This document shows, one piece after another, positions 52,080 to 53,124 of a stretch of 64,000 nt of DNA. Below the pieces are notes generated by a model. It was not told where the DNA came from and did no database searches. It worked only from the letters and a program-made list of their open reading frames with translations. This DNA is from Thermosipho ferrireducens (GTDB taxonomy: Bacteria; Thermotogota; Thermotogae; Thermotogales; Fervidobacteriaceae), in contig NZ_CP071446.1 in the NCBI RefSeq assembly GCF_017358165.1, positions 1,364,001 through 1,428,000 on the forward strand. Direction: 5' to 3'. Each line of letters starts with the position of its first letter. The stretch's first letter is position 1. The position numbers were made by a program, and so were the translations under genes.

Positions 52080-52113
52080 TGTGTATAAATTTTGTTGTGG
52101 AGGTGAGATTGTA

Positions 52114-52170
52114 ATGAACAGTGAGAGTTTTAGTAGTTACAGCGATGATCCTTTACCAAGACCACCATAG
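52114..52170 (+). CDS. Short leader peptide ORF upstream of corA
   Basis: ATG with TGGAGGTGAGATTGTA upstream opens 18 codons, MNSESFSSYSDDPLPRPP, ending TAG 27 bases before the corA ATG. The tail is acidic and rich in proline (DDPLPRPP). Enterobacterial Mg2+ transporter genes have leader ORFs of similar length, such as mgtL with its acidic/proline stretch, in which translation senses Mg2+ and proline. Here this is an analogy; homology is not shown. Confidence 0.65.
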   Translation: MNSESFSSYSDDPLPRPP

Positions 52171-52197
52171 TGAAATTTAAAAAAGGAGGTAGTAGAC

Positions 52198-53124
52198 ATG
52201 GTAAAATTTTACACAATGAAAGAGAACAAAATTGTTGAGGTTAAACAATTTGTTCCAGGGGCGTTGATTAAAGTAGTAGATCCTTCCGCAGACGAGGTCC
52301 ACATGTTATCCAGCCTTTTACAATTTGACTCTGATTTCATTTATGACTCATTGGATGAAGATGAAAGGGCTCGTATAGAGATAGATGATGATACCGTTTT
52401 ATTAATTTTAAAAATTCCAAGAAAACTTAATGGTGACTCGAAAATTCCGTACAAAACTGTTTCTCTTGGAATAGTCATTGGTCCAAATTATACAGTATTT
52501 TCCATGCGAAATGAAATTGAGTTTATTCAGCATATGATAGACGCCAGCAAATTTGACTTGAATAAGAGAAGCCGGATGATTTTTCAACTTTTTTATACCA
52601 ATGCTAAGGTTTTTCTTGGATACCTTAAAGAGGTAAACAAAACCATAGGTATGATAGAAGAAGAATTGCATAGGTCAATGAAAAATAAAGAACTTGAAGA
52701 GATGATGTATCTGGAAAAAAGTCTCGTTTATTTCACAACTTCTTTGCGTTCGAACGAGATAATGATGGAAAAATTGTTGAGAGGTAACATACTACAAATA
52801 TATGAAGAGGATAAAGATGTGCTTGAAGATGCTATTATAGAAAACAGGCAGGCAATAGAAGTTTCAAATATATACAGTGATATTCTGGCTGGTATGATGG
52901 ATTCTTACGCTTCTGTAATCTCTAACAATCTAAATATAGTAATGAAAATTTTAACAGTTGTTACTATACTTATGCAGATTCCAACTATAATTACGAGTTT
53001 TTACGGAATGAATGTAGGTTTGCCATTACAGAACAATCCTCTTGCCTATCTTCATATAATAACATGGTCTGTGGGAACCATTATCCTGACTCTTATATGG
53101 TTTAAAAGAAAAAAATGGTTGTAG
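52198..53124 (+). CDS. corA: CorA-family magnesium channel
   Basis: This 308-residue protein is a pentameric Mg2+/Co2+ channel. The cytoplasmic funnel domain is followed by two C-terminal membrane helices; the family motif GMN is in FYGMNVGLPLQNNP, and the basic end FKRKKWL matches the cytosolic basic sphincter. The ATG follows AAAAAAGGAGGTAGTAGAC. It ends the operon with a terminator. An ORF of 18 codons precedes it. Confidence 0.95.
   Translation: MVKFYTMKENKIVEVKQFVPGALIKVVDPSADEVHMLSSLLQFDSDFIYDSLDEDERARIEIDDDTVLLILKIPRKLNGDSKIPYKTVSLGIVIGPNYTVFSMRNEIEFIQHMIDASKFDLNKRSRMIFQLFYTNAKVFLGYLKEVNKTIGMIEEELHRSMKNKELEEMMYLEKSLVYFTTSLRSNEIMMEKLLRGNILQIYEEDKDVLEDAIIENRQAIEVSNIYSDILAGMMDSYASVISNNLNIVMKILTVVTILMQIPTIITSFYGMNVGLPLQNNPLAYLHIITWSVGTIILTLIWFKRKKWL

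Follow-up and report, generated by a model that had tools for sequence, protein, structure and literature searches.

How ribosomes sense Mg2+ through leader peptides has been elucidated for Salmonella and E. coli, and the closest known systems to the leader that we describe here are the enterobacterial mgtL, mgtQ, and corL. In Salmonella and E. coli, leader ORFs with acidic and proline codons control Mg2+ transporters (PMC8092293, PMC11552253, PMC11282234). Acidic codons early in the leader destabilize the ribosome and set the expression of the transporter, both in Salmonella (PMC8092293) and in E. coli (PMC11282234, PMC11552253). For mgtL and corL, translation of the leader is inversely tied to transporter expression (PMC11552253, PMC11282234); these are long leaders with alternative RNA structures and Rho termination. 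mgtQ lies in the mgtC-mgtB intergenic region of Salmonella; this ORF is very short, contains acidic codons, and controls expression at the level of translation (PMC8092293), with alternative stem-loops that hide the Shine-Dalgarno (SD) sequence of mgtB.

Two other kinds of leader are relevant. In TnaC, which responds to tryptophan, termination stalls with proline as the last sense codon (PMC3985003). In the RAPP and RAGP arrest peptides, stalling occurs at Arg-x-Pro-Pro near the C terminus (PMC9426467, PMC12992588); CruR, a copper leader, is metal-responsive. In the open-access literature, we found no report of leaders such as those described below in Thermotogota, Bacteroidales, or Spirochaetes.

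The leader ORF and its locus

The window (the whole 64-kb stretch of DNA that we analyzed) contains a short ORF just upstream of corA. The features of this locus, by position in the window, are:

52084 to 52089, forward strand: TATAAA, a putative -10 box for the transcript of leader and corA, assigned by its position; degenerate relative to the orthologues
52099 to 52103, forward strand: SD of the leader (GGAGG, from the sequence); GGAGGTGA is retained among orthologues
52114 to 52170, forward strand: leader ORF, MNSESFSSYSDDPLPRPP and stop, 18 sense codons; start ATG at 52114, stop TAG at 52168-52170; codons change synonymously among relatives
52138 to 52170, forward strand: constrained tail of the leader, (Y)SDDPLPRPP-stop, of which Pro-Pro-stop is the portion common to mgtE leaders
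52185 to 52189, forward strand: SD of corA (GGAGG, from the sequence), 14 nt past the leader stop
52198 to 53124, forward strand: corA, 308 amino acids, start ATG at 52198; the sole PF01544 gene in the genome
53142 to 53161, forward strand: hairpin 3' of corA that resembles an intrinsic terminator, from a terminator scan

The original prediction described an 18-codon ORF with a GGAGG site, ending 27 nt before a corA gene that has its own GGAGG, and these coordinates were confirmed (the 27 nt run from the TAG of the leader to the ATG of corA). The downstream gene does encode CorA: it matches PF01544 (E = 7.6e-50), its translation contains the GMN motif (as YGMN), and the nearest solved structures are the CorA entries 4cy4 and 4ev6. 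This is the only CorA in the 1.98-Mb genome, and we found no match to MgtE in that genome. When we scanned the window for ATG-started ORFs that are 8-40 codons long, have GGAGG at a distance of 4-18 nt before the start, and lie outside of ORFs of at least 100 amino acids, the leader was the only one. (An overlapping frame from 52081 reads MCINFVVEVRL.) The terminator-like hairpin after corA suggests that the leader and corA form their own transcription unit.

As with mgtL and corL, the leader region of a Mg2+ transporter gene in the window contains a short ORF with acidic and proline codons, and in this respect the proposed analogy to mgtL stands. The Rho or attenuator RNA of those systems does not carry over: the gap here is 27 nt, we found no terminator between the leader and corA in the window, and the RNA of the leader has no stable structure and folds like shuffled sequences (z = 0.12). 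The leader also resembles mgtQ, but the window has no structure like the stem-loops that hide the SD of mgtB, and a comparable SD hairpin occurs only in Kosmotogaceae-like corA (see below). Unlike mgtL and corL, the peptide here ends in Pro-Pro-stop, and such leaders are found on MgtE as well as on CorA. Proline before the stop codon is shared with TnaC, but here two prolines precede the stop. The Arg-Ala/Gly-Pro-Pro core of RAPP and RAGP is absent; instead, the window's peptide has Arg-Pro-Pro with the stop codon immediately after it, and the residue before Pro-Pro varies among leaders. Overall, the leader would be a form of peptide-level control akin to mgtL and mgtQ, with Pro-Pro-stop as its distinctive core.

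Leaders upstream of corA and mgtE in Thermotogota

We identified orthologues of the window's subfamily of corA in 41 of 103 Thermotogota genomes. A leader precedes 33 of these 41 orthologues, spread over four family-level groups; of the eight leaderless genes, six are from one family. In most relatives, the leader stop lies 18-33 nt before the start of the importer, and in relatives with a short spacer, the SD of corA begins 7-17 nt past the leader stop. The pattern [DE]PL[x]RPP-stop occurs in 16 of the 103 genomes, once per genome and always directly upstream of corA, and the reversed pattern has no match in any of the 103. Thus, the ORF in the window is no chance ORF. (A match inside an RND gene came from our first leader pattern, which carried an extra codon, and we attribute it to chance.)

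The leader is present in all nine members of the window's family, mostly as M(N/S)(S/G)(D/E)S...YS(D/E)(D/E)PL(P/S)RPP-stop. In the second family, (M/V)DY(F/L)SC(S/N)EDPLSRPP-stop occurs in 7/7 genomes of one genus, and a relative has MDSSSSSKDVVSLPP-stop. The third group has MESASNTEIPLRPP-stop as well as leaders that start with ACG or GTG and end in EVARNAEMPTRPP-stop. The fourth group, which is Kosmotogaceae-like, has ME(L/I)YSSE(G/S)(D/N)LPP-stop, MELYSSESEPPL-stop, MELYSSESEPPP-stop, and MDIYSSESAMPN-stop. Acidic residues are retained in all of the corA leaders.

Codon-level conservation of the peptide among relatives, which had been named as support for the original prediction, is clearly there. 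Across the last 11 codons and the stop in the window's family, we counted 72 synonymous versus 24 non-synonymous pairwise differences, as against 7:79 and 5:81 for the same alignment in the shifted frames (the pairs share ancestry, so the counts are not independent and serve as description, although they point clearly one way). The variable sites in the tail fall 3/1/10 on codon positions 1/2/3, and codon swaps include AGC for TCN serine codons (such as TCA) and AGA for CGA in arginine. Because synonymous change prevails in frame and not in the shifted frames, it is the peptide that is kept; the alignment shows constraint on the amino acids of the leader. Variation is much greater in the first half than in the tail. 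There may be additional constraint on the nucleotides in two groups, where identical residues have identical codons more often in the leader than in corA (0.876 vs. 0.634, and 0.824 vs. 0.369, the latter on 17 codons).

Among the 33 orthologue leaders, 28 carry a perfect extended -10 element (TGnTATAAT) 20-41 nt ahead of their start codon (we scanned 60 nt upstream), so the leader is most likely the first ORF on a transcript of its own. The extended -10 is the promoter type with the most information for most transcripts of Thermotoga maritima (PMC3636130).

In Kosmotogaceae-like genomes, the SD and the start of corA are hidden by a hairpin in which base changes preserve pairing. In Mesotoga-like genomes, a hairpin covers the start codon and the SD of corA, 71-90 nt downstream of the leader. 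The Mesotoga-like leaders end in PPL-stop or PPP-stop. When the leader stop is masked in silico, the hairpin-covered SD of the Mesotoga-like corA stays closed, so it is not obvious that control has the same sign in every family. By this modeling, the Kosmotogaceae-like branch may use leader translation differently. As a separate observation, the Mesotoga-like leader often ends with CTT TGA, which are the letters of the +1 frameshift site of prfB, and the +1 frame past this site encodes a conserved RPL(K/R)PPS. This may be a by-product of an anti-SD or a frameshifted leader.

As a control, we inspected the regions upstream of mgtE, which encodes a Mg2+ channel that is not homologous to CorA, and found the same leader design. 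A leader ending in Pro-Pro-stop (the feature by which mgtE leaders were recognized) precedes 38 of the 50 mgtE genes that we examined, with 18-33 nt between its stop and the start of mgtE; the other 12 lack a leader. The mgtE leaders include LE(S/G)TSSS(F/L)SLPP-stop, VESTSLPP-stop, VESNNLPP-stop, LESTSSSFSLPP-stop, MDSTGSFFEFSDLPP-stop, VEYPSYSSNKPP-stop, VDYPSCCNPLNKPP-stop, MDSTGSF(F/I)EFSDLPP-stop, MDSASSSSIEYANQPP-stop, MGDDCPSSRPP-stop, and MEDYPGSRPP-stop. VESTSLPP-stop precedes mgtE in probable Thermotoga genomes whose TmCorA-type paralogues have no Pro-Pro-stop leader (none was found at 10 such loci in the phylum).

The evidence that is blind to the downstream gene comes from two genome-wide pattern searches alone. 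We searched the 103 genomes for GAGGTG-spacer-CCNCCNTAR-N{4,24}-GGAGG with a spacer of either 12-42 or 43-73. With the shorter spacer, there were 20 matches: 17 upstream of mgtE, two within one coding sequence (in two genomes), and one other. The longer spacer gave 19 matches, of which 17 were upstream of corA (including the window's) and two were upstream of mgtE, with no match away from these genes in the 103 genomes. Together, 36 of the 39 matches are upstream of corA or mgtE. With the pattern reversed, each run returned a few matches at scattered positions. The presence of a similar leader on the unrelated importer MgtE strongly supports a tie between the leader and Mg2+ transport.

The leader peptides are 8-19 amino acids long, and between families they diverge widely except at their ends. 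Proline directly ahead of the stop codon is conserved: 55 of the 57 distinct leaders end in Pro-Pro-stop (which is partly due to selection), preceded by L, R, K, Q, or P. One mgtE gene, from a genome with two copies, has a different, acidic leader (MSNEDSVPDSSCIYKGVLIISFKGFDFYL-stop) with an apparent anti-SD in place of Pro-Pro-stop. The acidic DDP/DEP stretch is confined to the corA leaders; the mgtE leaders mostly have a single Glu or Asp, at codon 2.

In our survey, no genome of the window's family has both the leader-bearing corA and mgtE, and most genomes without this corA have MgtE. Since the corA-bearing genomes of this family lack mgtE, CorA looks like their main importer. We also considered a riboswitch, but the tested loci of corA and mgtE had no match to the M-box or Mg_sensor families of Rfam, and we dropped this reading.

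How the leaders may act

Our best explanation is that the ORF is a cis-acting leader peptide, that termination pauses at its Pro-Pro-stop, and that the pause provides feedback on Mg2+ uptake. We put the probability of this whole reading at about 0.6. We are very confident of its role as a regulatory leader for Mg2+ importers. Pausing at Pro-Pro-stop is probably the core of its action, and Mg2+ (or a linked signal) is probably its input. The leaders on both CorA and MgtE suggest that pausing ribosomes help to set the amount of either importer.

In more mechanistic terms, ribosomes would dwell on the leader during termination at Pro-Pro-stop. A ribosome at the leader stop would span ~10-12 nt beyond it and would get in the way of the 30S subunit at corA, where the SD starts 7-17 nt beyond the same stop. 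Occupancy of the leader would then gate the translation of corA. Cellular Mg2+ would control this gate, since the stability of ribosomes, their drop-off at acidic codons, and termination and recycling all depend on it. With scarce Mg2+, ribosomes would exit early (by drop-off at SDEP or by faster splitting) and corA would be freed; with ample Mg2+, ribosomes would stay parked on the leader. The direction of control is the weakest step, and we consider it somewhat doubtful that a parked ribosome means OFF.

According to the account of Hayes 2002 given in PMC3985003, Pro-Pro before a stop codon favors trans-translation, which is attributed to poor access of the release factor. A caveat is that the pause would be carried over by analogy from E. 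coli, from which these organisms may differ in EF-P status and in their ribosomes at 60-80 °C. The Pro-Pro codons (CCNCC) could also act as an anti-SD against GGAGG, but pairing is weak in folds of the window's family and U is rare at the wobble position, so this is probably not the main constraint.

The main rival is drop-off during elongation, as in mgtL and mgtQ: the acidic SDDP/SDEP/SEDP would destabilize ribosomes at low Mg2+ and free corA, with Pro-Pro-stop secondary. The retention of acidic residues throughout the corA leaders fits this, as do the acidic leaders (MDD... or M(P/S)DxD...) ahead of corA in Bacteroidales and Spirochaetes; and in mgtQ, Asp2 and Glu5 are required for translation of MgtB (PMC8092293). 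But the mgtE leaders keep Pro-Pro-stop with mostly one acidic residue, and Pro-Pro-stop is the commoner core across the distinct leaders (partly by selection, as noted above). So, of the acidic/proline tail that the original prediction took to be key, the acidic stretch is kept in the corA leaders, but the part common to the mgtE leaders is Pro-Pro-stop, which makes stalled termination a better lead than early drop-off. We consider drop-off by itself unlikely, although it could act jointly with Pro-Pro-stop.

A second alternative is positive coupling, in which the leader serves as a translated ramp: ribosomes that finish it would reinitiate at the nearby SD of corA, raising its expression, and any signal would be incidental. 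Reinitiation at leaders has been proposed genome-wide (PMC4833913), the gap from stop to start is short, and the second SD is strong. Reinitiation requires no particular peptide, yet the codons are constrained and the peptides end in Pro-Pro-stop. The preferred distance for reinitiation is 10-11 nt (PMC4833913; a reviewer of that paper describes the opposite in Thermotogae), as against 18-33 nt here. Coupling also leaves the specificity for Mg2+ importers unexplained, and we think it quite improbable.

The leader might instead sense slow proline codons, if low Mg2+ reduces the m1G37 modification of tRNA-Pro by TrmD. The account in PMC6335274, citing Gall 2016, describes this as a proposal with genetic support for mgtL of Salmonella, and all of our leaders but one have proline codons at the end. 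However, the m1G37-dependent codons are CCC and CCU, while the two final proline codons are CCA or CCG in 46/55 and 49/55 leaders, and such a sensor has no need for a stop codon straight after Pro-Pro; its chances are slimmer still. Finally, we think it very improbable that an RNA structure or a free small protein accounts for the conservation: the codon identity in two groups and the spacer hairpin of Mesotoga-like genomes would fit an RNA element, but the window's leader RNA folds like shuffles, change is synonymous in frame, and the peptides diverge widely between families save for the Pro-Pro-stop end.

Leaders upstream of corA in other phyla

The termination reading extends to a broader idea: Thermotogota would gauge Mg2+ by translation termination, with Pro-Pro-stop leaders throughout the phylum gating each lineage's importer, as one branch of a wider habit that includes acidic corA leaders in Bacteroidales and Spirochaetes. 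This is tentative, and we would bet slightly against it. If true, a peptide leader common to two non-homologous Mg2+ importers in a deep-branching phylum of thermophiles, with acidic parallels in two other phyla, would make leader-peptide sensing of Mg2+ by the ribosome a general and recurrent principle. For genomes without a Mg2+ riboswitch, the leaders suggest a possible route to the regulation of uptake. The testable core is Pro-Pro-stop 18-33 nt ahead of the importer start.

In Bacteroidales, acidic leader ORFs that start with MDD lie 46-96 nt before corA at 13 of 14 loci (for example, MDDYHPER-stop, MDDYHPDS-stop, and MDDPNSRTYLECINKVAVR-stop). Several are followed by a pair of segments (for instance, GAATAGAGG...CCTCTATTC), and these could be in competition with any pairing that involves the SD of corA. 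In Spirochaetes, acidic leader ORFs are present at 27 of 30 corA loci, mostly with M(P/S)D(P/S/T)D or MDPDG starts. Examples are MPDPDSCSRQDIPPFLRWPPREPDRP-stop, MSDTDGGGSSVPYHSSS..., and MDPDGSCPSTISIRRWPPRAG..., with a mgtL-like acidic/proline start and often an RxPP motif. With a crude filter for an acidic N terminus, 13/15 ORFs before corA passed in Bacteroidales and 26/36 in Spirochaetes, versus 4/31 and 2/110 of the other ORFs at the same loci. We regard the corA leaders of both groups, with their mgtL-like N termini, as leads from sequence comparison. In Bacillota, a corA-like gene has two small ORFs ahead of it, MESDHERIQKGNLNQ... and MKITSCLVALKGCVSND-stop.
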